Positions 8,047-32,047 of a DNA stretch of 34,753 nucleotides are shown here, piece after piece; the first letter of the stretch is position 1; the number at the start of each line of letters is the position of its first letter. The stretch covers positions 1 through 34,753 of the forward strand of contig JAJYEE010000026.1 in assembly GCA_021790335.1 (NCBI GenBank). Direction: 5' to 3'. A program made the translations under genes and the position numbers. The notes beneath the pieces were generated by a model. That model worked only from the letters and a program-made list of their open reading frames with translations, was not told where the DNA came from and made no database searches. The stretch comes from Pseudomonadota bacterium (GTDB taxonomy: Bacteria > Pseudomonadota > Gammaproteobacteria > Acidiferrobacterales > UBA6901).

Positions 8047-8048
8047 GG

Positions 8049-10097: not shown

Positions 10098-10718
10098 GGT
10101 TCGGCGCCCGGACTCCCGCAGGCGCTTGATCTGAAACAGCGTCGTGCGCTCATCCTCCTCCAGCATCGACTCGATGAACCGGATTGTGCTGCGGTAGCGG
10201 GGGATGATGTTGTAGCGCAACGCATTGACGCGCCGCTGGGTTCTGCGCTGCTCGGCCATCAGCCGCCACAGCGCCGTTTCGGCCTCGCCCAGACGCACAA
10301 GCAATACTGCGGTCTTCGCCAGACCGCTGCGAGCCTGATCGAAGCTCGCGTCGGTGCCCATGAGCCCTACCGGCTGGAGCGCGATCTCCTCGGCGCTAGC
10401 CGCCGGATATTCGATGCCGGCGCTCGATCGCGGAAGAATGCTCACCCGCAGAGCCGACCCGGCCCCGAGCGCCGCATGGCGGATCACCTGGCTGCCCATA
10501 CGCATCTGCGCAATCGCCAACCAGCGGTACGCCTGCTCCAGAACGACGCGCACCTCCGAGTGCAGGCGGCGATACCGGTCCAGACGCTCGCGCACCAACC
10601 TGTTCAGCAGTTCGCGCTTGCGCTCGAGCATGGAATGGCCCTGCTGCAGGAAGCGAAGCTGGCGCCTCAGTCCGAGCAATGCGCTCTTTGTAGGCGGTAT
10701 CTTCATGCGCCCTTTCAT
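10095..10718 (-). CDS. ntpD: V/A-type ATPase subunit D (central rotor shaft)
   Basis: This 207-residue subunit forms the coiled-coil central axle that turns inside the A3B3 head. The N-terminal helix 'IPPTKSALLGLRRQLRFLQQGHSMLERKRELL' (about 6-40) matches the family signature (P-T-K-x2-L...LLKxKR-x-L). A second long helix near the C-terminus reads 'RRTQRRVNALRYNIIPRYRSTIRFIESMLEEDERTTLFQIKRLR'; the family hallmark is 'RRVNALE-x2-IIP'. The ATG at 10718 overlaps the ntpB stop (ATGA); an in-frame ATG at 10706 is an alternative. It is the last ATPase gene. Confidence 0.94.
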   Translation of the reverse strand: MKGRMKIPPTKSALLGLRRQLRFLQQGHSMLERKRELLNRLVRERLDRYRRLHSEVRVVLEQAYRWLAIAQMRMGSQVIRHAALGAGSALRVSILPRSSAGIEYPAASAEEIALQPVGLMGTDASFDQARSGLAKTAVLLVRLGEAETALWRLMAEQRRTQRRVNALRYNIIPRYRSTIRFIESMLEEDERTTLFQIKRLRESGRRT

Positions 10719-13899: not shown

Positions 13900-14543
13900 G
13901 GAGCACCGTCCGCAGAAGACACGGGCGCCGGGAACAGCCGCGCGGTGATCACCTGCTCCAGCGCCTCGTGCATGCGCTCGAGCCGCGCCTCGATCGTGAA
14001 GTCGACACGCATGGTGTTGCCGGCATCACGCACCCGAATCCCACCCAGGCAATGCAACGGCTCGGATGCGAGCTGCACCGCCGTGGTCACGCCGGCCGCC
14101 TGACAGAACGATTCCCAGCGCCCGGAGATGCGCGTCCAGTCACGGGCGTTGACCTCCGCAACCAGTCCGCCGCTACCGATCGCAGACGCCGCGCGGGCGA
14201 GAAATCCTGCGAGCACCGGGAGGTAATCCTCCTCGTTCTCGACGAGCTGCCCGAGGCGGTCCGAAAGGGCGGCGATCGCATCCTGCACCAAATGCCAGCG
14301 CAGCCACTCCAGTTCCCGCTGCAGTCTGATTTCGCCCGCCTGGACACGCTGCCGGTAAGTACGCTCGGAAAACTCCCTGGCCGACCGGGCCTCGCGATCC
14401 TCGCGCAGACGCAGCCGCTCGTTCCCGCCCGCTACGAGCTCATCGTACATGCGGCGGGCATCTGCGAGATATTTTTCCGCCTGCGCCCTGGCACGCGCGA
14501 GCAGCGCCGCCTCAAGCTCTGCAGTTTGCGAAGGCGAACTCAT
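13896..14543 (-). CDS. ntpE: V/A-type ATPase subunit E (peripheral stalk)
   Basis: This 215-residue stalk subunit, with its partner at 18379-18699, holds the A3B3 head still. The N-terminal half is a long charged helix (ALLARARAQAEKYLADARRMYDEL and onward to about residue 85). The C-terminal globular part ends with the family-like LHCLGGIRVRDAGNTMRVDFTIEARLERMHEAL. The ATG at 14543 overlaps the subunit F stop (ATGA); the longer reading to 14684 is inside subunit F and is rejected. Sequence conservation in this family is low, so the call leans partly on position. Confidence 0.88.
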   Translation of the reverse strand: MSSPSQTAELEAALLARARAQAEKYLADARRMYDELVAGGNERLRLREDREARSAREFSERTYRQRVQAGEIRLQRELEWLRWHLVQDAIAALSDRLGQLVENEEDYLPVLAGFLARAASAIGSGGLVAEVNARDWTRISGRWESFCQAAGVTTAVQLASEPLHCLGGIRVRDAGNTMRVDFTIEARLERMHEALEQVITARLFPAPVSSADGAP

Positions 14544-14902
14544 GATTGCGGATCCGGCGCCTGCGCACTGAACAGGCCACGGACCATTTCCTCGACGCGC
14601 GTGTGGTACTCTTCCGGCGCATTCAGGGACGGTATCTCCACGACGATGATGCGTCCGCCTTTGGCCCGCACACGCTGCAGCCATGGCCCGTTGCTTCGTG
14701 CGAGATCGCGCTCGAGGAATATCACCGCATTCCGGTCGTGCTGGCTGAGGGCGGCGAGCAGCGCCTCCAGGGATTGGGGCGTGGCATTGACAACCGTCTC
14801 GACACCGATCATGGCAAATCCGTCCATCAGGGCGGCGTTCCCCAGAGCGATGACCCGCGTGCGGAGCGCGTTCGCGTCGTCCCCGGTCATGGCCGTCACC
14901 AC
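14540..14902 (-). CDS. V/A-type ATPase subunit F (rotor)
   Basis: This 120-residue subunit binds subunit D in the central stalk. It has the expected small alpha/beta fold: RVIALGNAALMDGFAMIGVETVV (strand plus glycine turn), then NAVIFLERDLA, 'GRIIVVEIPSLNAPEEYHTRVEEMVRGL'. The family pattern is 'GD-x7-GFxLaGv' near the N-terminus and IP-x5 near the C-terminus; here the first acidic residue is replaced within GNAALMDGF. It lies between K and E and overlaps E by four bases. Confidence 0.86.
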   Translation of the reverse strand: MVTAMTGDDANALRTRVIALGNAALMDGFAMIGVETVVNATPQSLEALLAALSQHDRNAVIFLERDLARSNGPWLQRVRAKGGRIIVVEIPSLNAPEEYHTRVEEMVRGLFSAQAPDPQS

Positions 14903-14906
14903 CCCG

Positions 14907-15374
<468 letters not shown>

Positions 15375-15388
15375 TCATGAACAGGAAT

Positions 15389-17287
15389 TCAAAATTCCGT
15401 TACTGCGCCCGCCGCAAGGGCAAGCGGCCGGAACTTACGCCCGCTGCCGCCGAAAAAGTGCGAAAACCCTTCGTAATACTCGAGCCGCAGCGCCTGTATC
15501 GCCACGATCGCTCCCTCAAGGATCACTATGAATATGTTTCCGAGCACGATCGTTATCCAGTGCCCGGCGCCTGGCTGCATCATGGATGCAAGCGCGAAAA
15601 CCGCTACGGCAAGCGCCATGTGGTTCAGTCCGAATGCGGCTACCCGCAGGAAGGAAAGCGTGTTGGAAAAGTAGCCGATCGCGTCCTCAAGCACCTGGGT
15701 AGACGCCACCAGAACACGCTCGCCCATCTGCCCGGCATACCGGTACCAGTGGTACCCAAACACCAATGCCAGAGCCATCGCCGCCACCACCCACTGCGTG
15801 CGGTCTGGACCGCCGCTGAAAAACCGCCGGTACACGCCGTACAGCACGGCGACATAGAACAACAGCCCGGCCGCCCCCCGCCCGTCCAGCAGGGCGTCCA
15901 GATACCGACGGTCGATGATGCGGTTGCATGCGGTCAGCACACCCACGAGCAGGATGAACCCGATACCGCAGTAGAGAGACACGGTCAGCATGCGTACCGG
16001 ATCGGCAAGCGGAGACATCCATAAAGGATGTACCAGCCGCTCGAAACCGAAGACGCTGCCATAAAGCCAGCCGAATCCGACAGACACCAGGCCGCAGGCC
16101 ACCACGAAAGGCGCAAAGCCGCGCAGCCGCCGCGATCCCGATATTCCGGCTGCCGCAATGATGGCTCCGTTGCCGATGTCGCCGAACATCATTCCGAACA
16201 TCAGAACGAATGTCGCAGCAAACGGCAGCGTCGGATCGATTTCTCCGTAGCGCGGTACCCCATAGTTGCTCACCAGAAGGGAAAAAGGACGCAACAGCGC
16301 ATGGTGATACAAGAGCGAGGGGACGCGCGCGAACTCATCCGGGCGCGGGTCGCGTATGCTCAGTGCGAACCGCTGCCCAAGCCTGTCCTGGAGTGCGCGC
16401 TGCAGGCCTGGCAGCGCGGAAACCGGCGCCCATCCGTCAATCTGCGTCAACCCGCCGCGGCCGCGCAAGGCCTGGCCAAGCTCGGCGTAGGGTGCAGCGA
16501 CTGCGAGCGCACGTGTCGCCTCTACCAATCTGCCGTGGAATTCCCTTTGCATGGCTTCGACTTGCCGGCAGCGAATGTCAGCCTCGGCGATCATCCGGTC
16601 CTGGTGCTCCAGCAGCTGCCGCCTCGCTTCCTGCGGATCGTCATGCCACTGCGCGGGCACGCGTGCCGCCTGCCAGTCTGCAGACCGCAGCACCGCCCCC
16701 ACCTCGGACTCCCGGCCCTTGGGCCCGGCAATAACGACATGCGCCAATCCCTGCGCGTCCTGCAGTAGCGCCAGTACGTAACCGGCGAGAGCCACCGCCT
16801 CGCGCAGCCGGCCGGCGTTGCCCGATGGCACCATGCCGACCTGCACGTCGAGAAACCGCCGGCTGCGCGCCAGCAGACCGAAATCGATATCGAGCGCCGC
16901 GAATCTGTCCAGCATCTTCATCAGCTGCGCGACATAGCGCTGCTCCTCCTCGGCACGCCGCAGGCTTTCCTGGCAATTCGAGCACTGCACCCACACGGTG
17001 CGCAGCCACGCCTCCACTTTTTCAAGTTCCATCTCGTCAGGAAGCCCCCCCTGCGGCGCCTGTGCATCGGCCGACAGCGGACAGTGCGCCAGGATCTTGT
17101 CGAGATGTCCGCGTGCCGCCCGGTACAGCTCACTGAACCGCTTGCCCGGAAGCTCCGGGAGCAGCTCCGGCGAGCCGCCGGCCTCGGGATTGAAGATGCC
17201 GCGCTGCGCCAACACGACCGCGGCGGCCGGCGCATCTTCCCGCAGGACCAGCACTGCGATGCGTTGCATGGGCAGGGGCCTGAACAC
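15389..17287 (-). CDS. ntpI: V/A-type ATPase subunit I (membrane stator, a-subunit)
   Basis: This 632-residue protein is the stator that forms the ion half-channels beside the K ring. The N-terminal ~320 residues are soluble and helical and bind the peripheral stalks. From 'PFAATFVLMFGMMFGDIGNGAII' onward there are seven to eight membrane helices. The essential arginine is Arg548 in LSFLRVAAFGLNHMALA, and the final QALRLEYYEGFSHFF (Arg601) is also a family hallmark. The start is GTG at 17287, giving MFRPLPMQRIAVLVL; ATG at 17269 is an alternative. It lies 41 bp after subunit C and 26 bp before K. Confidence 0.95.
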   Translation of the reverse strand: MFRPLPMQRIAVLVLREDAPAAAVVLAQRGIFNPEAGGSPELLPELPGKRFSELYRAARGHLDKILAHCPLSADAQAPQGGLPDEMELEKVEAWLRTVWVQCSNCQESLRRAEEEQRYVAQLMKMLDRFAALDIDFGLLARSRRFLDVQVGMVPSGNAGRLREAVALAGYVLALLQDAQGLAHVVIAGPKGRESEVGAVLRSADWQAARVPAQWHDDPQEARRQLLEHQDRMIAEADIRCRQVEAMQREFHGRLVEATRALAVAAPYAELGQALRGRGGLTQIDGWAPVSALPGLQRALQDRLGQRFALSIRDPRPDEFARVPSLLYHHALLRPFSLLVSNYGVPRYGEIDPTLPFAATFVLMFGMMFGDIGNGAIIAAAGISGSRRLRGFAPFVVACGLVSVGFGWLYGSVFGFERLVHPLWMSPLADPVRMLTVSLYCGIGFILLVGVLTACNRIIDRRYLDALLDGRGAAGLLFYVAVLYGVYRRFFSGGPDRTQWVVAAMALALVFGYHWYRYAGQMGERVLVASTQVLEDAIGYFSNTLSFLRVAAFGLNHMALAVAVFALASMMQPGAGHWITIVLGNIFIVILEGAIVAIQALRLEYYEGFSHFFGGSGRKFRPLALAAGAVTEF

Positions 17288-17328
17288 GGGTCAGCCGCCT
17301 TGCCGTTGGGATCGGTGAGCGTAGCGCA

Positions 17329-18375
17329 TCAGCCGGGTCCGAATGCAGCCATCAAGCCGGTTGCCTGCCGGATCAGGTCTGGGGCAAGTCCGAGGCGCCG
17401 GCCCTTGATGACCGCACGCAACTGGCGCAGCAGTTTCTCGCGCAGCACGAGATAGGCAAGCACCCGCGCCAGGTTGATGGAACGACTGCGCAGAATCGTC
17501 TCGGCCTTGCGCCAGCCACCGCGCTCCAGGATCAGCGTTGCGTCCGCCGCCGTGGTCACCCCGGACAGCGGCCGGGAGAACGGCTGTGGAAGTCCCGCTA
17601 TGACCTCCTCGATGGTTTCCAGCCGTGACAGGCGCTGCAGCAGCGGCGCTCGCAGCCGGTCGCCTGCAGGTACGAGGAGGTAATAGGTCTGCGCCGGAGG
17701 CAGGCCATAGGAAAAGCGGTAACGCAGCAACCAGAGAAGATTGGTCCGATCGATGATGTCCCCGACGAGCGTATCGAGTTGTCGACGGTCGCCGCGGTCC
17801 AGCGACTGCAATTGTTCGCTCAGCCCCGCGTAGTAGCGCCGGTCGACGGCGGCATCCATGTCAAACAGCTCGCGCCGCTCCTCGTAGATACGCCGCGCTT
17901 CGCGTGCAATGGCCCCGAATGGCGTATGCTCCAGACGACGGAGCAGTTCGGCCACATCCTGCGTGCCCAGCAGTTCCTCGACCGGCAACCGCCCATACGG
18001 GCCCATGTCCACCAGCTGCGCCCGGATTTGCGCCGCGGGCTCGCCGGTCATTTTGCCGCGCACTATGGCCTTGAGGTTGCTGAGCTCGAAGCGGCATGCC
18101 CAGTAGATGAAAAACCGGCGCGGCGCGGCGCTCAGGGCGCGCACCAGAATCACGAAATCCGCCAGCAGGCTTGCGATCAGTCGCTGTTCAAGAGAAAGGC
18201 CGGTATCGGCCGGATGCTCGGGCTGCCAGCCGGCGAGCCCCGCAGCCTGCAGGATGCCACCGTCGTGCTCATCGGCCTTGTCGATGAGGTCATCGACGCC
18301 CCGGTCGGAAAGCAGTCGCGCTGCCATTCCCGACACTCGGGCGTTCAGGTATGCATACCGCGCGATGGCGCGCAT
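17329..18375 (-). CDS. ntpC: V/A-type ATPase subunit C (rotor-to-ring socket)
   Basis: This 348-residue subunit connects the D/F central stalk to the proteolipid ring. It begins YAYLNARVSGMAARLLSD, the usual family opening, and has the repeated three-fold helical pattern with FELSNLKAIVRGKMTG (about 115-130) and 'RTNLLWLLRYRFSYGLPPAQTYYLLVPAGDRL' (about 210-245). The C-terminus 'NLARVLAYLVLREKLLRQLRAVIKGRRLGL' is also typical. It starts three bases after the upstream gene stops. Confidence 0.92.
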   Translation of the reverse strand: MRAIARYAYLNARVSGMAARLLSDRGVDDLIDKADEHDGGILQAAGLAGWQPEHPADTGLSLEQRLIASLLADFVILVRALSAAPRRFFIYWACRFELSNLKAIVRGKMTGEPAAQIRAQLVDMGPYGRLPVEELLGTQDVAELLRRLEHTPFGAIAREARRIYEERRELFDMDAAVDRRYYAGLSEQLQSLDRGDRRQLDTLVGDIIDRTNLLWLLRYRFSYGLPPAQTYYLLVPAGDRLRAPLLQRLSRLETIEEVIAGLPQPFSRPLSGVTTAADATLILERGGWRKAETILRSRSINLARVLAYLVLREKLLRQLRAVIKGRRLGLAPDLIRQATGLMAAFGPG

Positions 18376-18902: not shown

Positions 18903-18930
18903 GTGAGAGCGGTCTGGCCGCCTATCTCAC
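18903..18930 (-). terminator. Stem-loop covering the hynL stop codon
   Basis: On the minus strand GTGAGA pairs with TCTCAC and GCGG pairs with CCGC around the loop CCAGA. The TAG stop codon is a three-base bulge on the left arm. There is no T-run after it. It marks the boundary between the hydrogenase genes and the ATPase genes, and may attenuate or process the message. Confidence 0.45.
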
Positions 18931-20697
18931 TTTCACCTGAATGAGTTCGTCGCCTTCGGGATCGGTCACATGCACCGCACAGGCAATGCATGGATCGAAA
19001 CTGTGGATGGTGCGCAGAATCTCCAGCGGCTGCTTGGCATCGTACAGTTGCGTGCCCTTGAGAGATGCCTCATAGGGTCCTTCCTCGCCGGCCGGGTCGC
19101 GCGGCCCGGCGTTCCAGGTGGTTGGGACAACCGCCTGGTAGTTGTCGATCTTGCCATCCTTGATCACCACCCAATGTGCGAGCGCACCGCGCGGCGCCTC
19201 GGTATAACCGACACCCCGTGCCGTCTTCGGCCAGGACGAAGGCTCCCACAGCCTGTCGTTGAACGTCCGCACATCCCCGTTCTTGATGTTGGCGATCAGG
19301 CTGTCGTACCAGCCCTGCATCGCATCGACGATGATCTTCGACTCGAGTGTCCGCGCTGCAGTGCGTCCGAGCGTCGAATACAGTGCCTGGATTGGCAGAT
19401 CGAGCTTCTTTAGCGCGTAATTCGCAAGCTCGCGTGTAGGCTCGTGACCGCTGGCGTAGAGCACTAGCACCCGTGCCAAAGGACCGACCTCCATCGGCTT
19501 GCCGCGCCAGCGCGGAGATTTCAGCCAGGAATAGCTCTGTTCGGTATCCAGGTTCTGGTACGGCGGCTTCGGTCCGGTGTAGTTAAGGACGGTTTCGCCC
19601 TTGTACGGATGCAGACCCTTGTCCTTGCCGACACTGTAGTCATACCAGGAGTGCGCGACGAATTCCTGTATCTGCGCCGGATCGGCCATATCCACCGCGT
19701 GCAGCTTCGTCAGGTCACGGTCGATGATGGCCGCGGGCGGGATCAGATAACTCCCGGGATCGTTCATGCCTTTCTGCGGAAACTCTCCAAAGGTCAGGAA
19801 ATTCCCTACGCCTTCGCCCCGCGTGAACCAGTCCTTGTAGAAACCGGCAATGGCGAGTGTATCGGGAAGATACACCTGGTCCACGAACGAACGCATCTGA
19901 TGGATGACATTCTGTACGATTTCAAGGCCGACGATATTGACCGCAGTCGCCCCCGCGCCGGCGCCACTGCTGTACCGCTCGCCTCCGGCCTCCGGGTGTT
20001 CCGGGTGCACACTGATGGCGCACGGTGCACCGCCTACCAGGAAATTCGGATGCGGATTCTTGCCGCCGAAAATGGCATGCAGCTTCACCACCTCCCGCTG
20101 CCATGCAAGGGCCTCCAGATAGTGACTGACGGCCATGAGATTCGCCTCGGGAGGCAGCTTGTACCCCGGATGTCCCCAGTAGCCGTTGGCAAAGATTCCA
20201 AGCTGGCCGGATTCCACGAAGTTCTTGAGCTTCTTCTGCTGGTCGGCGAAGTAGCCGGGCGACGACTTGGAATAACTGCTGATGGATTGCGCCAGTGCCG
20301 CTGTTTTTGCGGGATCGGCCTTGAGCGCCGATACCACGTCGACCCAGTCGAGCGCATGCAGATGGTAGAAATGCATTACATGGTCGTGGACAAACTGTGC
20401 CGCAATCATCAGATTGCGTATCAGCTGGGCATTGGGTGGAATCTCGTAATTCAGTGCGTTCTCCACCGTGCGCACCGATGCGATGCCGTGAACCAGCGTG
20501 CATACACCGCAGATGCGCTGCGTGAATGCCCAGGCATCGCGCGGATCGCGCCCGCGCAGGATGATCTCTATGCCGCGCACCATGGTGCCGGCGCTCGATG
20601 CCTGGGTAATCGTGCCGGTGGCGTCAGTCTTGGCCTCGATGCGCAAATGGCCCTCGATACGGGTAACCGGGTCAACCACGACTATTTGGCTTGGCAT
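18922..20697 (-). CDS. hynL: Isp-type (group 1e) [NiFe] uptake hydrogenase large subunit
   Basis: This 591-residue subunit bears the Ni-Fe site of a membrane-bound respiratory hydrogenase. VVDPVTRIEGHLRIE opens the protein, RICGVCTLVHGIASVRTVENAL begins at residue 61, and DPCIACAVH lies at 568-576. A 15-residue tail, VTDPEGDELIQVKVR, follows the final histidine and should be removed by HynD. The subunit has no signal peptide and would be exported with HynS by the Tat route. Two ATGs (20700 and 20697) follow a GGAG; I use 20697 for better spacing. It sits after isp2, as in Thiocapsa-type hynS-isp1-isp2-hynL operons. Confidence 0.96.
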   Translation of the reverse strand: MPSQIVVVDPVTRIEGHLRIEAKTDATGTITQASSAGTMVRGIEIILRGRDPRDAWAFTQRICGVCTLVHGIASVRTVENALNYEIPPNAQLIRNLMIAAQFVHDHVMHFYHLHALDWVDVVSALKADPAKTAALAQSISSYSKSSPGYFADQQKKLKNFVESGQLGIFANGYWGHPGYKLPPEANLMAVSHYLEALAWQREVVKLHAIFGGKNPHPNFLVGGAPCAISVHPEHPEAGGERYSSGAGAGATAVNIVGLEIVQNVIHQMRSFVDQVYLPDTLAIAGFYKDWFTRGEGVGNFLTFGEFPQKGMNDPGSYLIPPAAIIDRDLTKLHAVDMADPAQIQEFVAHSWYDYSVGKDKGLHPYKGETVLNYTGPKPPYQNLDTEQSYSWLKSPRWRGKPMEVGPLARVLVLYASGHEPTRELANYALKKLDLPIQALYSTLGRTAARTLESKIIVDAMQGWYDSLIANIKNGDVRTFNDRLWEPSSWPKTARGVGYTEAPRGALAHWVVIKDGKIDNYQAVVPTTWNAGPRDPAGEEGPYEASLKGTQLYDAKQPLEILRTIHSFDPCIACAVHVTDPEGDELIQVKVR

Positions 20698-20767
20698 CAT
20701 ATTTCTCCAGAGGACGGATCGGCTGGTGTGGGATGCGGACCGTTGCCCGGACCCTGCGATCCAGCTC

Positions 20768-22123
20768 CTATTGCACGAGATTGTCCGCGACCAGCTCGAG
20801 CAGGCTGTGCGCGGTCTTGTCCCACTTGAAATGCGCCTGACCATCGTCGAAAGTCTGGCGGCAGTTCGAACAGCTCATCACCAGCATCTCCGCGCCCGAG
20901 TCGTCCACTTGCTTCATCTTGATCTGAAAGACCTTGTAGCGCAGCTCGTCCGCCCGATGGATAGTCACGACTCCGCCGCCGCCGCCGCAACACCAGTTGC
21001 CGTCTCCGCTCGGGGTCATTTCGTGCAGATCAACACCCAGCTTCCCGAGCACCTGGCGCGGTGCCTGCGTAGCCCCGCCGCGGCGCGCGATCTGGCAAGG
21101 ATCATGGAATGTCACCGACTTCGGCACATTCCTGACCTTGAGTCTGCCGTTGCCCAGATTCCTGGCAAGAAACTCGGAGATGTGCAGAACCTCGAATGGC
21201 AGCGGCTTGCCGTAGACATTGGCCCCGTCCCAGCGCATGGCGCCGTAGGCGTGGCCGCATTCGGGCAGAATCAGCAGCTTCGCCTTGCACCTGACGGCGG
21301 CATTGATCATTTTCATGCTGAGGTCTTTCTGCCATTGGCTGTTGCCCGAAAGCATGCCGAAATTCGTCGCTTCATAGCCATCCAGACGGATCGTCCACTT
21401 TTCGCCGAGCGCATTCAGCACCCTGGCAGTGGCGACAATGGCCTGGGGATATTTCATGATTTCGATCGATGACATGGTCACCAGGATGTCCGCCACGTCC
21501 CTGTCCACAGGAATCTCCACTGCGTTCTCGTCGGACAGCCAGTCGATGCGATCCTTGAATACCTTGGGCGTGGCGCCAAGCGGACTGCCCTCGCGCTCGG
21601 CACGCTCGGCAACGGCCCACAATTCGTGCGGCACAAGCCCTGCCTGGAACATTCCGTGACGCGCCTGTCCCACAAGACGCGCGATGTCGATGCCCATGGG
21701 ACAGATCAGCGTGCAGCGCCCGCACATGGTGCACGAATCGTAAATTAGCTCCTGCCACTTCTGCAGCTCATCCGCCGTCACCCGGGGCTTGAGGTTGAAC
21801 AGCCGGTAGAAGAATGCGAACGGCCCGGCCTCGCGCTTGTATGCCTGCTTGAACGGTTCCAGCTTGCGCACCGGGGTATATCGGGGATCGTTTGTCTGGA
21901 CATAGTAATGGCAGGCTTCGGCGCACATGCCGCAGTGTATGCAGGATTCCAGATAAATTGCCGAAGTCGCGCCGAATTCACGCACGAACGTGCGCATGGC
22001 GGCTTCCACGCGCTGTCCATCGGACATGTCGCCCTGCCGATCGTAGCGCAGGGCGGGTTTCTTGATGCTCAGGCGCGCCCCTTCGGTCTCCAGAGGATGG
22101 ATTGTGTTGATGTCAGAGCTCAT
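20768..22123 (-). CDS. isp2: Isp2, HdrD-like iron-sulfur electron-transfer protein
   Basis: This 451-residue protein resembles the catalytic D subunit of heterodisulfide reductase. Two 4Fe-4S motifs are seen: CIHCGMCAEAC with cysteines 61, 64, 67 and 71, and CTMCGRCTLICP with cysteines 131, 134, 137 and 141. The C-terminal half holds one cysteine-rich CCG-type domain (HDPCQIARRGG at 340-350, CCGGGGGVV from 378, CSNC at 418-421). The first CCG domain appears degenerate, keeping only PECGHAYG. No membrane helix is seen, so it is probably a cytoplasmic partner of Isp1. In group 1e hydrogenases it is thought to move electrons between the hydrogenase and sulfur or quinone metabolism. Confidence 0.94.
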   Translation of the reverse strand: MSSDINTIHPLETEGARLSIKKPALRYDRQGDMSDGQRVEAAMRTFVREFGATSAIYLESCIHCGMCAEACHYYVQTNDPRYTPVRKLEPFKQAYKREAGPFAFFYRLFNLKPRVTADELQKWQELIYDSCTMCGRCTLICPMGIDIARLVGQARHGMFQAGLVPHELWAVAERAEREGSPLGATPKVFKDRIDWLSDENAVEIPVDRDVADILVTMSSIEIMKYPQAIVATARVLNALGEKWTIRLDGYEATNFGMLSGNSQWQKDLSMKMINAAVRCKAKLLILPECGHAYGAMRWDGANVYGKPLPFEVLHISEFLARNLGNGRLKVRNVPKSVTFHDPCQIARRGGATQAPRQVLGKLGVDLHEMTPSGDGNWCCGGGGGVVTIHRADELRYKVFQIKMKQVDDSGAEMLVMSCSNCRQTFDDGQAHFKWDKTAHSLLELVADNLVQ

Positions 22124-22773
22124 GTACTCGCCCCCCTGCGACCGTAGACCGCGCCGGTCTGTCCGCGCGCGAGAAACAACAGCACGGAGTGCATGAGCTT
22201 GCCGAATGGGAACCAGATCAGCAGCAGTTCGAAACTCAATATGTGTACCGCCAGCAGGTCTTCATAGCGCCCACCGTAATGTCCCGCAGCCAGCAGTCCG
22301 GTCACCACCGGAGCGGCCGTCACGAACCAGCTGAAATAGTCGTCAAAGTTCGATAGCAGCTTCAGCACCGGATGTGTCAGGCGCCGGACGATGGCCATCA
22401 CCAGCGCTACCAGGGTGATAACGGCGCAAAAATAGATGATCCCGCCCGGCAATCCGCTCCAGCCGACTCCGACAAGGTTACGGATAAACAGGATATGCGG
22501 CACGAACCCGAAGACGATGATTGCCAGCCCGATGTGGAAGACGTAACTGACCGTTACGCCGTAGGCGGTACGCGCCTGGAACTCCCTGCGTGGCCATGAA
22601 CGGCGAATGATGCTCCGCAGGGCCCCGAGTCCGGCAGCGTGCACGCGCGGCTCCGAATAATCATGCGTGCGCCGCAGCAGCAGCATGCCGAACAGGCGCC
22701 ACAGCATGCCGAACAGGAAGATCGCAATCGACCACTTCATGACCGCCCCGCGGGCGAAGTCGAGCAGGTTCAT
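22120..22773 (-). CDS. isp1: Isp1, cytochrome b membrane subunit (NarI-like)
   Basis: This 217-residue integral membrane protein has about five hydrophobic helices and anchors the hydrogenase. Histidines in membrane segments (for example FHIGLAIIVFGFVPHILF and LLAVHILSFELLLIWFPFGKLMHSVLLF) are candidates for heme b ligands, as in the NarI/DsrM family. The ATG at 22773 overlaps the hynS stop, and its stop overlaps the isp2 ATG; both overlaps are ATGA. It takes electrons from HynS and passes them to the quinone pool or to Isp2. Confidence 0.93.
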   Translation of the reverse strand: MNLLDFARGAVMKWSIAIFLFGMLWRLFGMLLLRRTHDYSEPRVHAAGLGALRSIIRRSWPRREFQARTAYGVTVSYVFHIGLAIIVFGFVPHILFIRNLVGVGWSGLPGGIIYFCAVITLVALVMAIVRRLTHPVLKLLSNFDDYFSWFVTAAPVVTGLLAAGHYGGRYEDLLAVHILSFELLLIWFPFGKLMHSVLLFLARGQTGAVYGRRGAST

Positions 22774-23834
22774 GACTGCTTCTCCTTTTCGGAATGCGCA
22801 TGGCGGCGGCGCGAGACAATCGCCGCACCCACACCGATAGCGGCCCCGGCGACCGCGGCCGCACCGAGAACGGCGCCGCCGCTCCAGGTGCCCGTGGACA
22901 GCGCCTGGTAGAAACTGCCCTTGTCCCAGAAATCCGGCTCCGAACAGCCGAGGCAGCCGTGCCCCGACTGGATCGGATAGCTTGTGCCCTGGTTCCACTT
23001 CACGGTCGGGCAGGCATTGTAGGTGACCGGGCCCTTGCACCCCAGCTCGAACAGGCACCACCCGTTGCGCGCGCCTTCATCGTCGAAGGTCTTGGCAAAC
23101 TTGCCTTCATCGTAGAATGGCCGGCGATAGCAGCGATCGTGAATGGTCTCGCCGAAAAACACCTTCGGGCGGCCAAGATGATCCAGCTCGGGAATGCTGC
23201 CGAAGGTCAGGTAATGGGCCAGTACGCCAGTAATGACCTCGGGCACCGGGGGGCAGCCGGAGACGTTCACGACCGGCTTGTCTTTGACGATGCGGCTTAC
23301 CGCAACGGCGCCGGTCGGATCGGGGTTGGCATGCGGTATGCCGCCGAACGCGGCGCAGGTGCCGACCGACACGACCGCCGCCGCACCCTTAGCGGCCTCG
23401 GTTAGGATGTCAACCGCACTTTCGCCCGCAATGGTGCAATAGGCACCGTCGTGCCCCACGGGCACCGCGCCGTCGACCACGAGCAGGTACTTGCCCCAGT
23501 TTTCCTTCATGGCTGTCTTGCGGGCCGCTTCCGCCGCGGTGCCGGCAGCTGCCTGCAGGGTTTCATAGTAGTCGAGCGACATGACGTTGAACATCAGGTT
23601 CTCCAGGGTCGGAGAGAACGACCGAGTGAGCGACTCGCCGCAGCCTGTGCATTCCTGATATGAGAGGTAGATGACCGAAGGGCGCCTGGCGCGACTCAGC
23701 GTCTCTGCCATCACCGCCGCCATGCCCGGCGGCAGCGCCAGCAGCGATGCCGTCGCTGCACAGAACTTCATGAAGGCCCTGCGGGATATGCCCTGCTTTC
23801 TGAGAGATTCCCCAATCGAATCGTCTTTCGACAT
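22770..23834 (-). CDS. hynS: Isp-type (group 1e) [NiFe] uptake hydrogenase small subunit
   Basis: This 354-residue iron-sulfur subunit has a Tat signal with SRRAFMKF at 17-24 followed by a hydrophobic run, so HynS-HynL is exported folded to the periplasmic side. The proximal cluster motif ECTGCGES has Cys62 and Cys65. Further ligands lie in VGTCAAFGG, VSGCPPVPEVI, and the distal and medial cluster region 'HDRCYRRPFYDEG...CLFELGCKGPVTYNACP...SGHGCLGCSEPDFWD'. The C-terminus is a membrane anchor (about 318-340) followed by basic residues. The start at 23834 is chosen for the signal peptide; longer upstream readings are not supported. The order hynS-isp1-isp2-hynL is characteristic of group 1e. 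Confidence 0.96.
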   Translation of the reverse strand: MSKDDSIGESLRKQGISRRAFMKFCAATASLLALPPGMAAVMAETLSRARRPSVIYLSYQECTGCGESLTRSFSPTLENLMFNVMSLDYYETLQAAAGTAAEAARKTAMKENWGKYLLVVDGAVPVGHDGAYCTIAGESAVDILTEAAKGAAAVVSVGTCAAFGGIPHANPDPTGAVAVSRIVKDKPVVNVSGCPPVPEVITGVLAHYLTFGSIPELDHLGRPKVFFGETIHDRCYRRPFYDEGKFAKTFDDEGARNGWCLFELGCKGPVTYNACPTVKWNQGTSYPIQSGHGCLGCSEPDFWDKGSFYQALSTGTWSGGAVLGAAAVAGAAIGVGAAIVSRRRHAHSEKEKQS

Positions 23835-23868
23835 CGGATACCCCCTTGGTAGCGACACCCTGTGGCGC

Positions 23869-24288
23869 TCAGCCGCCGAGCGCCTCGAGCTGCGCGTGCA
23901 GCATTTCAAGCCCGTCGGCAACATCGTCCGGCGGCGTTCTGAGAATGTCGGGCATGTGCGTGATCTCGATGAACTCCGCAGCGACTTTTCCGTCTTCGTT
24001 CTGATGCGCAACCCACCATACCCCGCGTACGACCGACTCGTACACCTGCGTCTGTCCGAGGGCACGAACCACGGCGCTCACCTCGCCTTCGGCGAAAATC
24101 CTGCGCAGGACATCACGGTCGCCCGGTGCCATCGGCAGGCTGCGCAGATCGATGGATCCGCAGATCCCGGCGTCCGCCAGCCTTGCCAGCATGGACTCGA
24201 CTTCGTTTACGATCGCCAGCACCCGGCTGAAATTGCGGGCTGGGTCCGCGCTGACCACCTTGATCGGGAAGTCACCGAGCGCGCTCAT
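23869..24288 (-). CDS. Small HupH/HyaF C-terminal-domain-like hydrogenase chaperone
   Basis: This 139-residue protein resembles only the C-terminal domain of HupH/HyaF, accessory proteins thought to assist small-subunit maturation. Family-like segments are 'IFAEGEVSAVVRALGQTQVYESVVRGVWWVAHQNEDG' and AEFIEITHMPDILRTP; the match is to the pattern LGEGEVxxxi...xxExxxxGvWrv...IEIxxiP. Full-length HupH is about twice as long, so this is either a naturally short version or a lineage-specific form. The ATG at 24288 overlaps the hynD stop (ATGA), and it lies 34 bp before hynS, consistent with a role in small-subunit maturation. Confidence 0.75.
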   Translation of the reverse strand: MSALGDFPIKVVSADPARNFSRVLAIVNEVESMLARLADAGICGSIDLRSLPMAPGDRDVLRRIFAEGEVSAVVRALGQTQVYESVVRGVWWVAHQNEDGKVAAEFIEITHMPDILRTPPDDVADGLEMLHAQLEALGG

Positions 24289-24755
24289 TGCCACGCTCCA
24301 GCAAGACTGAAGACTTCACCGCAGGCCTGCGAGATCGCCCGGGCAACGGCTTCGCTGGGACCATCGGCCCAGTCCACGAATTGGGGCTGTATTCCGATCA
24401 GCGCCCGACGGTGCGGCAGCCGTCCGGCAAGCAGGGCTATCGCCAAGAGGTCGAGCAGGCTGACCTCGTGCACACTCGCCCTGCGATTCGTACCGAGAAA
24501 GTGATCCATATCCTCACCAATGAATACCTGCAGGGTGCCAGGGGCTGCATGCAGCTGCGCAGCGTCGACTACGATGAGATTGTCGGTCTGTTCGATCGGA
24601 CCGGCGAGCGTGAAACTGAGCGTGCCGCCGTCGAGGAATTCGATGTCGGAACGATCGCCGTGCAGTTGCTGCATTCGGCGCACGACATGAACGCCCGCAC
24701 CTTCATCGCCGAGCAGCGTGTTTCCCAGGCCGAGGACCAGCGTTTTTATTGTCAT
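24285..24755 (-). CDS. hynD: Hydrogenase maturation protease for HynL
   Basis: This 156-residue M52-family endopeptidase is the first gene of the structural operon and should trim the 15-residue tail of HynL. The signature GNTLLGDEGAGVHVVRRM starts at residue 11. By alignment with HybD, Glu18, Asp64 (in IVVDAAQ) and His96 (in SVHEVSLLDLL) would be the nickel-sensing ligands. The ATG at 24755 has a GGGGGA ribosome site directly upstream; a longer frame to 24785 exists but lacks this support. It overlaps the HupH-like gene by four bases. Transcription probably begins about 150 bp upstream at the FNR-linked promoter. Confidence 0.94.
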   Translation of the reverse strand: MTIKTLVLGLGNTLLGDEGAGVHVVRRMQQLHGDRSDIEFLDGGTLSFTLAGPIEQTDNLIVVDAAQLHAAPGTLQVFIGEDMDHFLGTNRRASVHEVSLLDLLAIALLAGRLPHRRALIGIQPQFVDWADGPSEAVARAISQACGEVFSLAGAWQ

Positions 24756-24911
24756 TTCCCCCGCACCGCTGCCGGGCGGCAGCACTTGCCTGACCCGAGA
24801 CCATCAGCCCGCGATCACCAACGTTGGCCCCGCGCTTCCGTGCTTCCGCACAACATCCGGTTCGGCGACGTCACACTCCAGCACCTCTGCACGAGCCGTG
24901 CTGTCGATTCG

Positions 24912-24917
24912 ATAGTA
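24912..24917 (-). promoter_or_regulatory. -10 element of the hyn operon promoter
   Basis: The minus strand reads TACTAT (4 of 6 to consensus). Its nearest edge is 28.5 bp from the centre of the FNR-type box, placing the predicted start near 24905 and the box at about -40.5. This is class II activator geometry, which usually comes without a good -35. Confidence 0.5.
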
Positions 24918-24938
24918 TTCCACCCAAGATGACGATCA

Positions 24939-24952
24939 TTGATATAAATCAA
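24939..24952. promoter_or_regulatory. FNR/Anr-type binding site shared by divergent hyn and hypCAB promoters
   Basis: TTGAT-ATAA-ATCAA is an exact match to the FNR consensus TTGAT-N4-ATCAA. It lies between hynD (minus) and hypC (plus), with a -10-like hexamer 28.5 bp from its centre on each side. An FNR-family oxygen sensor bound here could activate both transcripts. The assignment to FNR rather than another Crp/FNR-family member is inference. Confidence 0.75.
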
Positions 24953-24973
24953 AATTCGGCAAAAGCGCTGCGC

Positions 24974-24979
24974 TAATAT
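24974..24979 (+). promoter_or_regulatory. -10 element of the hypCAB promoter
   Basis: TAATAT lies 28.5 bp from the centre of the FNR-type box, giving a predicted start near 24986 and a leader of about 68 bases before hypC. The spacing mirrors that on the opposite strand. Confidence 0.5.
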
Positions 24980-25053
24980 TGAAAATAACTGGCGCCGAGA
25001 GGTGCGATCCGATTTTGCAGTACGGCTCGCCCGGTTCGGCCGCGGAGGGCAGC

Positions 25054-25281
25054 ATGTGTCTCGGCATACCCATGCAGGTCATGGAAATTGATGGTTATGT
25101 AGCGCGCTGCGCTGCCCGGGGCGCCGAGCGCGAAGCCAGCCTGCTTCTGCTGCAGGATGAACCGCTCGTGCCGGGCGATTTCGTGATGATCCACCTGGGT
25201 TATGTCATTCAGAAGATGACCCCCCAGGAGGCATTTGCCGCCTGGGAACTTTACGATCAGATGCTTGCCGCCGATGCATGA
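25054..25281 (+). CDS. hypC: Hydrogenase maturation chaperone HypC
   Basis: This 75-residue protein begins MCLGIPMQVMEIDGYVARC. The catalytic-type Cys2, which carries the Fe(CN)2CO group together with HypD, is exposed after Met removal. The later segment 'PGDFVMIHLGYVIQKMTPQEAFAAWELYDQML' is the usual HypC/HupF C-terminus. A GGAGGG five bases upstream fixes the ATG at 25054. It overlaps hypA by eight bases. Its partner HypD is not found in the window. Confidence 0.96.
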   Translation: MCLGIPMQVMEIDGYVARCAARGAEREASLLLLQDEPLVPGDFVMIHLGYVIQKMTPQEAFAAWELYDQMLAADA

Positions 25282-25660
25282 ACTCTCGGTGTGCCGGTCA
25301 CTGATTGCCCAGGTGGAGGCAGTGGCAATACAGCATGGGGCAAGGGCGGTACGGAGTATCCGCATCTGCGTGGGACCGCTATCCGGCATCGATCCGGACC
25401 TCCTGCAACGGACCTATCCGCTCGCCCGGGCAGGCACCGTTGCGGATACCGCCGGACTCATTATCGAGCACCTGCCGATCCGCGTCCGCTGCGAGCGCTG
25501 CGGCTTTGAGTCCGAGGCGGCGCCAAATCGGTTGATATGCACCCGCTGCGGCGACTGGCATACCCGGCTGCTGAGCGGGGACGAGATGCTGCTGGCGAGC
25601 GTGGAACTGGAAACGGACGATGGATTGCCTGCATCGCCGGATCAGGCCCGGATTTTTTGA
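25274..25660 (+). CDS. hypA: Hydrogenase nickel incorporation protein HypA
   Basis: This 128-residue metallochaperone delivers nickel to the large subunit. It begins MHELSVCRSLI with the nickel-binding His2. A structural zinc site is formed by CERC (73-76) and CTRC (89-92), followed by the typical SGDEMLLASVELE end. The ATG at 25274 overlaps hypC; an upstream in-frame start at 25235 would bury the essential N-terminal Met-His-Glu, so it is rejected. hypB follows 42 bp downstream. Confidence 0.95.
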   Translation: MHELSVCRSLIAQVEAVAIQHGARAVRSIRICVGPLSGIDPDLLQRTYPLARAGTVADTAGLIIEHLPIRVRCERCGFESEAAPNRLICTRCGDWHTRLLSGDEMLLASVELETDDGLPASPDQARIF

Positions 25661-25702: not shown

Positions 25703-26566
25703 ATGTGCGACACCTGCGGATGCAACATTACACCCGGAAACGGGCATCTGGTGGCAAGCGGCGGAAAGCTGTCCCGGACCGAGGACGGCAAGGCCGCCGT
25801 GACGGTGCTCAGAGGTCTTCTGGACGAGAACGATCTGCAGGCACACCACAATCGGGAGCATTTCGACCGGCATGGAGTCCTGGCCGTCAACCTCATGTCA
25901 TCGCCGGGTTCCGGCAAGACCGCGCTGCTGGAAGCGACCATCGATGCATTGCGCCATGAATTCAAGTTGGCCGTAATTGAGGGCGACCTCGAGACCGAAA
26001 ACGACGCTCAACGCGTACGCGCCAAGGGCGTGCCCGCCATTCAGATCACGACCGGAAGCGCCTGTCATTTGGATGCGCACATGGTACACGATGCACTGCA
26101 TCTTCTGCCGCTCACGGGAATCGACATCGTCTTCATCGAGAATGTCGGAAATCTCGTCTGCCCGGCCAGCTTCGATCTTGGTCATCACCGCAACGTCACA
26201 CTGCTCTCCGTCACCGAGGGCGACGACAAGCCCGCCAAGTATCCGGTGATGTTCCGCGCTGCTGATCTGATGCTGCTCACCAAGACCGATCTGCTTGCGG
26301 TCCTCGACGATTTCGATCCACAGCGCGCCGAGGCGGCATTGCGCCAGCTGGCGAGCGAGGCACCAGCGATCCGGCTTTCGGTGCGCTCCCATGAGGGCCT
26401 GGACGCCTGGACCGCCTGGCTGCGGCGCGAACTCAGCGCACAACGCCAACGCGTAGCGCAGCACGCCAGTGCGCGCCCCGCGGGCCAGCCTGACGGCCAC
26501 CGTCTACATCACAGGATGGCGGCGAGCGCCCGCCCGGGATACGTGTTTCTGCCGGCAAAACCCTGA
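25703..26566 (+). CDS. hypB: Hydrogenase nickel incorporation GTPase HypB
   Basis: This 287-residue SIMIBI-class GTPase drives nickel insertion with HypA. The N-terminal CDTCGCN high-affinity nickel motif is at residues 2-8; no histidine-rich stretch follows. The P-loop SSPGSGKT is at 66-73, the dimer metal site GSACHLDAHM begins near residue 118, 'IVFIENVGNLVCPASFDLG' is the switch region and TKTD the guanine-specificity motif. After the domain ends near residue 243 there is an extra ~44-residue basic, Arg/His/Ala-rich tail with no recognised function. GGAG precedes the ATG. Confidence 0.96.
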   Translation: MCDTCGCNITPGNGHLVASGGKLSRTEDGKAAVTVLRGLLDENDLQAHHNREHFDRHGVLAVNLMSSPGSGKTALLEATIDALRHEFKLAVIEGDLETENDAQRVRAKGVPAIQITTGSACHLDAHMVHDALHLLPLTGIDIVFIENVGNLVCPASFDLGHHRNVTLLSVTEGDDKPAKYPVMFRAADLMLLTKTDLLAVLDDFDPQRAEAALRQLASEAPAIRLSVRSHEGLDAWTAWLRRELSAQRQRVAQHASARPAGQPDGHRLHHRMAASARPGYVFLPAKP

Positions 26567-26654
26567 ACCCCGCCCGGTTGCACATCGCCCGGCCGGCGGT
26601 GAGTCCGGCCCGGCTTGCTGCAGGCCGACGGTTCCGTTGGTGCAGCCCATCGCC

Positions 26655-26685
26655 TTGACAGGATCCGGTGCAGCGGCAAGACTAT
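26655..26685 (+). promoter_or_regulatory. Possible promoter between hypB and the permease gene
   Basis: A perfect -35 hexamer TTGACA (26655-26660) is followed after a long 19-base spacer by a poor -10, GACTAT (26680-26685). A GGCAGG-TAG-CCTGCC hairpin lies slightly downstream. If real, the permease and methyltransferase genes are not simply part of the hypCAB transcript. This is a weak call. Confidence 0.3.
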
Positions 26686-26777
26686 TTTGCGCAGGCAGGT
26701 AGCCTGCCCCGGGGCGGACTGCATGCCGATTGCGGTCCGCGGGTCACTCACACCGTGCCGGCCTCCTTGATTTATCA

Positions 26778-28510: not shown

Positions 28511-28683
28511 TCTGCGGTTGACGGCTGACGCCCGCGAAGGCAAAGATTGGCTTTTCCGGAACGCCACAATCCCGGCCAGCCTGCGTTCGGTGAACATGAA
28601 AACAATTTGGACCAAAGAATCGGAAATTGCGGCTGTCGGGCAACCCGCTGCTGGCCATGCCGTGGCACAGCACCGGCGATAGC

Positions 28684-30990
28684 ATGCACGACGATCCTCC
28701 TCGCGCGCCGGCCGGGTCGTTCCCGCAGCAGATTGTCGCGAGGCGCTGGATGCTGGGCGGTCGTGTCCAGGCAGTCGGATTCCGCCCGTTCGTCTACCGC
28801 ACGGCGCATCGCCACGGACTTTCCGGCTGGGTCAGAAACCGCGGTGGACAAGTCGAAATCCTGGCGCAGGGGACGCTTGCAGCGATTGATGAATTCGCCG
28901 CCGCGCTGCTGGCCGAGGCGCCGCCCTTGGCGCAACCCGCGCTGCTTTCGGTCGAGGATGCATCACCCGGCCCGCTGCAGGCGTTCACCATTCTGGAAAG
29001 CGACGATACATCGAGCGCTCCCATCCATGTCCCGCCCGATTACTTCGCCTGCAACGACTGCCTGAGCGAACTGCAGGATCCCGGCAACCGGCGCTACCGC
29101 TATCCCTTCATCAACTGCACGCAGTGCGGTCCCCGCTACACCCTGATCCGGAACCTGCCCTACGACCGGGCCAACACGACAATGGCCGGGTTCGCGCTGT
29201 GCGACGCGTGCCGGCACGAGTACCACGATCCGCGAGACCGCCGCTTCCACGCCGAACCGATAGCCTGTCCCGCCTGTGGCCCGACCGTAGAATTCCGCGT
29301 CCCGGGCGCACCCGTCGTGTCCGATATGCAGGCGGCCTTGGCAGCCGGCGTTGCAGCGCTCCGATCTGGGCGAATCGTTGCTGTAAAGGGCGTGGGCGGC
29401 TATCACCTCATGTGCGACGCGCTCAACGCCACCGTTGTCAGGCGCCTGCGTCTGCATAAGCCACGCCCGCACAAGCCGTTCGCCGTGATGTTTCCACTGC
29501 GCGGCAGGGACGGCCTGGATGCCGTACGCGAGGCGGTAACGCTCGATGATGAATCGGCCCGCTGGCTGCGCTCGCCAATGCGCCCGATCGTGCTGTGCCG
29601 GAAGAAAACCGCCAGTCCGCTCGGCATGGAAGTCGCCCCTGGTCTGAACGAAATAGGCGTCATGCTGCCTTATAGTCCGCTGCATCATATTCTGCTCGCC
29701 GACCTCGATGCCCCGGTGGTGGCCACTTCTGCCAATGTGGGCGGCGAACCCGTTCTGACCGAACGCGCCCTGCTGGAAGAACGTCTGGGGCAGGTCGTCG
29801 ACGCGGGCCTGCACCACAACCGTCCGATCGAGCGGCCGGCGGATGATGCCGTATACCGCGTCATCGCGCAGCGACCGCGGCCGCTGCGCCTCGGACGCGG
29901 CGGCGCGCCACTGGAACGCCGGCTGCCGCTGCGCCTGGAGCGGCCGCTGCTGGCCGTCGGCGGCCACGCCAAGAACACGGTGGCGATCGCCTGGGAAGAC
30001 CGGGTTGTGATCTCGCCACACATCGGCGACCTCGGCTCGCCGCGCAGCCTCGCCGTCTTCGAGCGGACGGTGGCCGACCTTCAGGCACTCTATCGCGTTG
30101 AGGCATCCGCGGTGGTATGCGATGCACATCCCGGCTATGGCAGTACACGCTGGGCAAAACGATGTGGCCTGCCCCTGGCCGAGATCTACCATCACCACGC
30201 ACACGCCTCGGCTCTCGCCGGAGAGTTTCCCGAGGCGGGCACCTGGCTCACTTTCACCTGGGACGGCGCCGGTTATGGAGAAGACGGGACACTGTGGGGC
30301 GGCGAGGCATTGCTCGGCCGCCCCGGTGCATGGCGGCGGGTGGTACGATTGCGGCCGTTTCATCTGCCGGGGGGTGAGCACGCGGCGCGCCAGCCATGGC
30401 GCAGCGCGGTGGCACTTTGCTGGGAAACCGGAAACGCCTGGGACGCCTGCCCCGAAGGCACGACGCTGCTGTTTGCGGCGTGGCAGCGGCTTCTCAACAG
30501 CCCGATGACTACTGCCGCCGGAAGACTTTTCGATGCGGCCGCCTCATTCACCGGATTGCTTCATCATGCAAGCTTCGAGGGTCAGGGCCCCATGTATCTC
30601 GAAGCGGCGTGCGCCGCTTCCGCGGAAATAGTCGTCCTTCCGCTGCAGCGCACAGCGCAAGGACTGTGGGAGTGCGACTGGGAGCCGCTGGTACCCTACC
30701 TTATCGATGCCACGCTGCCGGTGGCGCAGCGCGCAGCCGGCTTCCACGCGAGTCTTGCCCATTCTCTGGCGCAGCAGGCGCACACGCTGCGGCTCGAGCA
30801 CCGCATCGATGCCGTGGGGCTTACCGGCGGGGTGTTTCAGAACCGTGTATTGACCGAGCATGCCTGCGCTTTATTGCAGGACGACGGCTTCACGGTATAC
30901 CTTGCACGCGACATCCCGTGCAATGACGCTGGAATCAGCTTCGGCCAGATCGTGGAACGTCAGGCGCAGCTGGCCGGGCACAGCCGGTAG
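28684..30990 (+). CDS. hypF: Carbamoyltransferase HypF (hydrogenase cyanide-ligand synthesis)
   Basis: This ~768-residue enzyme uses carbamoyl phosphate and ATP to carbamoylate the HypE C-terminal cysteine, the first step in making the cyanide ligands of the Ni-Fe site. Domains in order are an acylphosphatase-like part (GGRVQAVGFRPFVYR near residue 25), paired zinc fingers (CNDCL, CTQCGPR, CDACRHEY, CPACG), a YrdC-like nucleotide domain (VKGVGGYHLMCDA, RPHKPFAVMF) and a Kae1-like carbamoyltransferase domain (YHHHAHASALAGE, GLTGGVFQNRVLTEH). I start at ATG 28684 just before the acylphosphatase part; TTG 28627 and ATG 28657 are in-frame alternatives. All domains look intact. Confidence 0.96.
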   Translation: MHDDPPRAPAGSFPQQIVARRWMLGGRVQAVGFRPFVYRTAHRHGLSGWVRNRGGQVEILAQGTLAAIDEFAAALLAEAPPLAQPALLSVEDASPGPLQAFTILESDDTSSAPIHVPPDYFACNDCLSELQDPGNRRYRYPFINCTQCGPRYTLIRNLPYDRANTTMAGFALCDACRHEYHDPRDRRFHAEPIACPACGPTVEFRVPGAPVVSDMQAALAAGVAALRSGRIVAVKGVGGYHLMCDALNATVVRRLRLHKPRPHKPFAVMFPLRGRDGLDAVREAVTLDDESARWLRSPMRPIVLCRKKTASPLGMEVAPGLNEIGVMLPYSPLHHILLADLDAPVVATSANVGGEPVLTERALLEERLGQVVDAGLHHNRPIERPADDAVYRVIAQRPRPLRLGRGGAPLERRLPLRLERPLLAVGGHAKNTVAIAWEDRVVISPHIGDLGSPRSLAVFERTVADLQALYRVEASAVVCDAHPGYGSTRWAKRCGLPLAEIYHHHAHASALAGEFPEAGTWLTFTWDGAGYGEDGTLWGGEALLGRPGAWRRVVRLRPFHLPGGEHAARQPWRSAVALCWETGNAWDACPEGTTLLFAAWQRLLNSPMTTAAGRLFDAAASFTGLLHHASFEGQGPMYLEAACAASAEIVVLPLQRTAQGLWECDWEPLVPYLIDATLPVAQRAAGFHASLAHSLAQQAHTLRLEHRIDAVGLTGGVFQNRVLTEHACALLQDDGFTVYLARDIPCNDAGISFGQIVERQAQLAGHSR

Positions 30991-31027
30991 GGTCAGAGCA
31001 TTCATCGTGCAACGCGGCGGCACCGAC

Positions 31028-32047
31028 ATGAAATCGGAAAAAACCGGAGAAACCCACATATCCCTGGCGCATGGCAACGGCGGACGTTTCATGCGCGAGC
31101 TGATCGAGCAGGTGTTTGCGCGTCACCTGTCGAATCCGCTGCTCGACATCCGGGCCGACGCCGCACCTGTACCCGTCAGGACAGGAGAGATCATGATCAC
31201 CACGGACGGATTCACCGTCCAGCCGCTGGAATTTCCCGGTGGCGACATCGGCTCGCTTGCGGTTCACGGTACCGTCAATGATCTCGCCGTGTCCGGTGCC
31301 GCCCCGCTTTACCTCAGCCTCAGCACGTTCATAGAGGAAGGCATGGAAATCGCCCAACTCGAACGCATCGTCGCCAGCCTCGGCCGCGCCGCGGCTTCAT
31401 CCGGCGTGCAGGTCGTTGCCGGCGACACCAAGGTAGTGCGCCGCGGCGAAGGCGGCGGACTCTACATCGCCGTCACTGGCGTGGGGGTCCGTCCGCCGGG
31501 ACTGTCACTGGGCATGCAGCACATCCGGGAGGGCGACGTCATAATCGTGAGCGGACCCGTCGGAGACCACGGAATCGCGGTAATGCTTGCCCGCGAGCAG
31601 TTCGGACTGCGCAGCGACCTCCAGTCCGACGCTGCCAGCGTGCTGCCGCTCACCCGCGCACTGCTGCCCATGGCCGGACTGCGATTCATGCGCGATCCGA
31701 CGCGCGGCGGACTGGCCACGGTCGCACACGAAGTCAGCCGCGCCACAGGCCTGGGCGTGCGGTTGCACGAACCGCAAATACCGGTGCGCGAGGCGGTGCG
31801 CTCGGTATGCGAAACGCTTGGCTTTGATCCCTTGTATCTCGCCTGCGAAGGTCGTGTGGTGGCTGTGGTTGCCGCCGACGAGGCCGCGGCGGCGCTTGCC
31901 GCCTGGCGCGTACTGCCGCAGGGAGGGCTCGCCGCTATCATAGGAAGGACAGAGGGGACGCGGCCACAGGTTGTCATGGAGACCGCACTCGGAGGGGAGC
32001 GCTTTGTTGAAGAACTCGAAGACGATCCGCTGCCGCGCATCTGCTGA
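31028..32047 (+). CDS. hypE: Hydrogenase maturation protein HypE (thiocarbamate dehydratase)
   Basis: This 339-residue PurM-like ATPase dehydrates the HypF-made S-carbamoyl group on its own last cysteine to a thiocyanate, which is passed to HypC-HypD. It begins ISLAHGNGGRFMRELIEQVF, has ITTDGFTVQPLEFPGGDIGSLAVHGTVNDLAVSGA (about 57-91), VVAGDTKVV and 'FMRDPTRGGLATVAHEVS', and ends in the required PRIC. The ATG at 31028 follows a weak ribosome site, GGCGG. It starts 37 bases after hypF stops. hypD, which usually sits beside hypE, is missing here. Confidence 0.96.
   Translation: MKSEKTGETHISLAHGNGGRFMRELIEQVFARHLSNPLLDIRADAAPVPVRTGEIMITTDGFTVQPLEFPGGDIGSLAVHGTVNDLAVSGAAPLYLSLSTFIEEGMEIAQLERIVASLGRAAASSGVQVVAGDTKVVRRGEGGGLYIAVTGVGVRPPGLSLGMQHIREGDVIIVSGPVGDHGIAVMLAREQFGLRSDLQSDAASVLPLTRALLPMAGLRFMRDPTRGGLATVAHEVSRATGLGVRLHEPQIPVREAVRSVCETLGFDPLYLACEGRVVAVVAADEAAAALAAWRVLPQGGLAAIIGRTEGTRPQVVMETALGGERFVEELEDDPLPRIC

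Follow-up and report, generated by a model that had tools for sequence, protein, structure and literature searches.

A single FNR box as the predicted class II site of two divergent promoters for hydrogenase and maturation genes in an uncultured gammaproteobacterium

The analysis of the spacer between the divergently oriented genes hynD and hypC revealed a single FNR box lying at the same distance from two outward-facing -10-like hexamers; on the basis of sequence, spacing and conservation, we consider it very probable that both promoters are activated, in the class II manner, by one FNR dimer. The window, that is, the whole stretch of DNA analysed, comprises 34,753 nucleotides of contig JAJYEE010000026.1 (assembly GCA_021790335.1), and the features discussed below are listed in Table 1. 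The earlier note had reported an exact FNR consensus in this spacer, and both its sequence and its coordinates are correct. The gap from either edge of the box to the neighbouring hexamer is 21 bp on either strand (the plus-strand letters at 24912-24917 are ATAGTA, read as TACTAT on the minus strand). The previously given distances, 28.5 bp from the box centre to each hexamer and about 40.5 bp to each start site, also hold, the former being measured to the nearest base of the hexamer (the hexamer centre lies 31 bp away) and the latter being derived from the -10 positions. The two predicted starts would be about 81 bp apart, with leaders of about 150 nt (hynD) and 68 nt (hypC). The idea that the box occupies an exact centre is true of the two hexamers, from which it is equidistant, but not of the genes, since it is off-centre between the likely start codons of hynD (ATG 24755) and hypC (ATG 25054).

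Table 1. Features of the window discussed in the text.
Feature	Position	Strand	Remarks
FNR box TTGATATAAATCAA	24939..24952		centre 24945.5; exact match to TTGAT-N4-ATCAA
-10-like hexamer TACTAT, hynD promoter	24912..24917	minus	21 bp off box; predicted start ~24905
-10-like hexamer TAATAT, hypC promoter	24974..24979	plus	21 bp off box; predicted start ~24986
hynD, hydrogenase maturation protease	24285..24755	minus	TIGR00072, TIGR00140; ATG 24755
hupH	23869..24294	minus	PF04809 HupH_C, E 1.5e-27; overlaps hynD stop
hynS ORF, hydrogenase small subunit	22770..24065	minus	TIGR00391; true start internal
isp1 ORF, cytochrome b-like membrane anchor	22120..23061	minus	TmcC/HmcE-type models below curated cut-off; true start internal
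isp2, HmcF/DsrK-like iron-sulfur protein	20768..22123	minus	HmcF, TmcB, DsrK models below curated cut-off
hynL, NiFe-hydrogenase large subunit	18922..20844	minus	PRK10170, E 2.6e-213, below equivalog cut-off
hypC (MCLGIPMQ...)	25054..25281	plus	TIGR00074; translation
hypA	25235..25660	plus	TIGR00100, PF01155
hypB	25703..26566	plus	TIGR00073
hypF	28627..30990	plus	TIGR00143
hypE	30860..32047	plus	TIGR02124

No sigma-70 -35/-10 promoter and no -35 element were found in the box region, the hexamers at the -35 positions of both promoters being poor, as expected of activator-dependent class II promoters. Ordinary sigma-70 promoters were discarded on this ground, and so was sigma-54 control, since the spacer (24755-25054) contains no -24/-12 pattern. 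The features by which class II FNR promoters may be recognised are present: an exact box, a predicted position of -40.5 on both sides without a -35 element, a fixed and conserved spacing, and a four-cysteine FNR protein with E-xx-SR encoded in the same genome.

This arrangement resembles the class II FNR promoters of E. coli (narG, dmsA, nirB, focA-pflB, yfiD), which have the same box at the same distance from the -10 region but where a box usually serves one promoter. Indeed, in E. coli the site lies at -41.5 +/- 4 in 19 of the 23 FNR-activated promoters with known starts, and at -40.5 in focA-pflB and yfiD (PMC3688515). In Dinoroseobacter shibae, promoter mutagenesis showed that one Fnr/Dnr site at -39.5/-41.5 drives the divergent nirS and nosR2, and the divergent promoters of hemA3 and dnrE likewise have a single Fnr/Dnr site (PMC5398030). 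As in nirS/nosR2, one Crp/Fnr-family site lies here at class II distance from both (predicted) starts, 21 bp from each hexamer; the former, however, are denitrification genes of an alphaproteobacterium with near but not exact symmetry, whereas here the genes are those of a hydrogenase and the function of the site is predicted. The same principle reportedly applies to a related activator, CRP rather than FNR: El-Robh and Busby are said to have described in 2002 the activation of divergent promoters by E. coli CRP bound at a single target. That a single FNR/Dnr site may serve divergent promoters is already known experimentally, and the hyn/hyp case is convincing but largely expected.

As for hydrogenase genes, the hyn operon of Thiocapsa roseopersicina is said to be under the control of FnrT, with sites upstream of hynS, in work attributed to Kovacs et al. 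in 2005. That hydrogenase is of the same kind (hynS-isp1-isp2-hynL) and has an FNR-type regulator, as is predicted here; the site described here, instead, is upstream of hynD and common to hypC. In Rhizobium leguminosarum, the hypBFCDEX genes have an FnrN-type promoter (PMC3534401), similar to that predicted for the hyp genes of this window, but hupSL is transcribed from a separate NifA promoter and no site is shared.

Within the 3.08 Mb of the genome, the pattern TTGAT-N4-ATCAA occurs at 12 sites, where base composition would predict about 0.4 and the reversed control gave none; the exact 14-mer of the hyn/hyp spacer occurs once. The full mirror pattern, with a gap of 21 bp on either side, is likewise found once in this genome (control 0), and the hyn/hyp box is the only one of the 12 perfect boxes to be flanked on both sides by TAnnnT at 21-22 bp. 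In the order as a whole, 9 of 57 genomes carry the strict 21/21 pattern, never more than once each (control 0), and five of these nine places are the hyn/hyp spacer. Other symmetric 21/21 matches are those of G006, located upstream of a dsrC-like gene (L140:1077-1144), of G056, whose contig carries a MarC-family gene, and of G015 and G055, where no gene was identified at the site.

The earlier note had suggested looking for loss of the box in close relatives that keep the gene layout; the box is instead retained, with 0-1 mismatches, in each of the four relatives from the same genus, whose hynD is 76-96% identical, and in the other same-order loci with close hynD homologues (about 58-67% identity), one of which (L012) keeps it though the divergent gene is hypA and not hypC. 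When the spacer is aligned across five same-genus species, most of the invariant islands correspond to the box, the region of the left hexamer, a portion of the right one and the start of hypC, the remainder having diverged. Most of the same-genus and same-order relatives also keep TAnnnT at 21-22 bp on either side of the box. Of 20 related loci, which belong to several gammaproteobacterial lineages, some of them outside the order (L086 and L106 among others), 13 have such a hexamer towards hypC, 12 towards hynD and 10 in both directions. The position-shuffled means are 0.9, 0.6 and 0.04, respectively, and none of 20,000 shuffles reached the observed counts, a figure that is not a probability of independent origin, the 20 loci being mutually related and not 20 independent events. 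Other offsets in the same, equally related loci gave nothing similar to the 21-22 bp peak.

The divergent layout does not require the box, since many loci with the same layout, mostly from Betaproteobacteria (e.g., Thiobacillus), are without it, and in most of the betaproteobacterial ones no hidden FNR box was found within two mismatches. In six betaproteobacterial loci with divergent hynD and hypC and no FNR box upstream of hynD (L087, L097, L107, L110, L112, L121), inspection by eye showed in some cases a -35/-10 pair with a 17 bp spacing (TTGTTA-17-TAGATT) together with an IHF-like ATCAR-N4-TTR motif, which suggests a different control there.

These data bear on the alternative readings of the site. 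With about 40% G+C around the box, the spacer has a higher AT content than the genome, a background in which an AT-rich palindrome might arise by chance and have no regulatory function; nevertheless, 12 perfect sites where about 0.4 are expected, a mirror pattern unique in the genome and the conservation across species make this reading extremely improbable, and it was rejected on counts and conservation. It might also be supposed that true class II activation by FNR operates in one direction only, with the opposite promoter weak or repressed by the same dimer, as happens in E. coli, where FNR suppresses acsP1 while activating nrf, from which acsP1 diverges (PMC5434802). A few relatives, in which only one hexamer is clear, would fit this idea, the poor one being on the hypC side in L014 and L017 and on the hynD side in L013. 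Here, though, both hexamers are good, and over the related loci the same sharp peak at 21-22 bp is seen on both sides, conserved about equally often, so that we regard a single functional class II promoter as quite unlikely.

A further question concerns the protein that would use the box. The genome harbors four Crp-family genes. The products of two of them (L002 and L003) combine the C-x2-C-x5-C motif with a fourth cysteine, within VCE[IL]P, and with the recognition helix ETVSR (E-xx-SR), and their matches to a solved FNR-type regulator (PDB 5cvr/5e44) have E-values of 2.9e-60 and 4.4e-75, respectively; judging from their sequences, these FNR proteins should be able, in principle, to bind the box. 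A third homologue (L004) has ETVSR and is devoid of the cluster cysteines. Hence, another member of the Crp/Fnr family with the same recognition helix, for example a DNR-type protein responding to nitric oxide, might use the box instead of, or alongside, FNR, just as the single nirS/nosR2 site of Dinoroseobacter answers to both FnrL and Dnr (PMC5398030). Against this stand the two full four-cysteine FNR proteins and the fact that hydrogenase and nitric oxide have, as far as we infer, no obvious link; we hold a DNR-type user to be rather unlikely, though less so than a single functional promoter. The proposal of the earlier note that one FNR site would activate both promoters in a class II manner thus gains support from the conservation, the spacing and the FNR proteins of the genome.

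Concerning the genes that the site would control, the minus-strand operon has the order hynD-hupH-hynS-isp1-isp2-hynL, and the hynS translation shows an internal start (MSKDDS) followed by a twin-arginine-type signal (SRRAFMKF). Directly downstream of hynL, genes for subunits C, I, E, A and B of an A/V-type ATPase are clustered at 10715-18375 on the minus strand, here in a proteobacterium. A second NiFe-hydrogenase set resembling a cytosolic sulfhydrogenase (HydB, HydG, HydD and HydA types, below curated cut-offs) lies at 5958-9981, minus strand, and is presumably served by the same Hyp proteins. A plasmid search returned only distant hypB matches. On the plus strand, the operon is certain only for hypC-hypA-hypB; two unrelated genes (an EamA-type transporter and a methyltransferase) separate hypB from hypF, which may be on a separate transcript. 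A promoter-like sequence (TTGACA...AAGACT) at 26640-26700, ahead of the EamA-type gene, may give hypF-hypE a transcript of their own.

The previous suggestion that the site keeps enzyme and cofactor synthesis in step with oxygen supply is, therefore, tenable for hypC-hypA-hypB but perhaps not for the whole set: hypF comes after the two unrelated genes, and hypD is outside the main cluster, so that, the hyp operon being incomplete here, the hyn/hyp site alone may not control all cofactor synthesis. The hypD gene is on contig C71 (L137, G000:C71:11000-21000), flanked on one side by a hydrogenase-large-subunit-like gene and a second hypC (hypC2) and on the opposite side by a HypX-like fusion of formyltransferase and enoyl-CoA hydratase. 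The first reading frame of this group (hydrogenase-like gene-hypC2-hypD-hypX) is preceded, at about 60 bp, by another of the 12 perfect boxes, although a good -10 at class II distance in the direction of the group is missing; on account of this second box, the FNR control of hydrogenase assembly probably extends past the hyn/hyp site. CO synthesis by the HypX type is usually tied to growth with oxygen, with which an FNR box before a HypX-like group is at odds. Another perfect box (L045, about 1501-1514; G000:C100:2061-2074) is just upstream of an apparent dsrA, a gene recognised by eye from its translation, with TACCGT 22 bp away towards it, which suggests that FNR may also control sulfur oxidation genes.

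On the whole, we propose that at low oxygen one FNR/ANR-type dimer would assemble and bind the palindrome, standing in for the missing -35 of two mirror-image class II promoters and recruiting sigma-70 RNA polymerase towards the hynD-hynL operon and, in the opposite direction, towards hypC-hypA-hypB, so that the hydrogenase and part of the nickel-iron assembly machinery would be switched on together. Since each polymerase would depend on the one dimer and its two flanks, and the geometry sets the starts so close to each other, the two promoters would probably fire alternately. It is conceivable, even if we advance it only tentatively and with more doubt than confidence, that the exactly mirror-symmetric pair, with its one shared FNR dimer, has been selected and retained in several gammaproteobacterial lineages, where it would work as an alternating, ratio-setting switch coupling the hydrogenase subunits to the supply of HypC, HypA and HypB. 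If confirmed, the double activation would explain the joint low-oxygen switch-on of hydrogenase genes and some of their maturation genes in an uncultured, probably sulfur-oxidising gammaproteobacterium, and the hyn/hyp spacer would represent a clean natural test case of whether two class II promoters facing away from each other are served by one dimer simultaneously or in turn.
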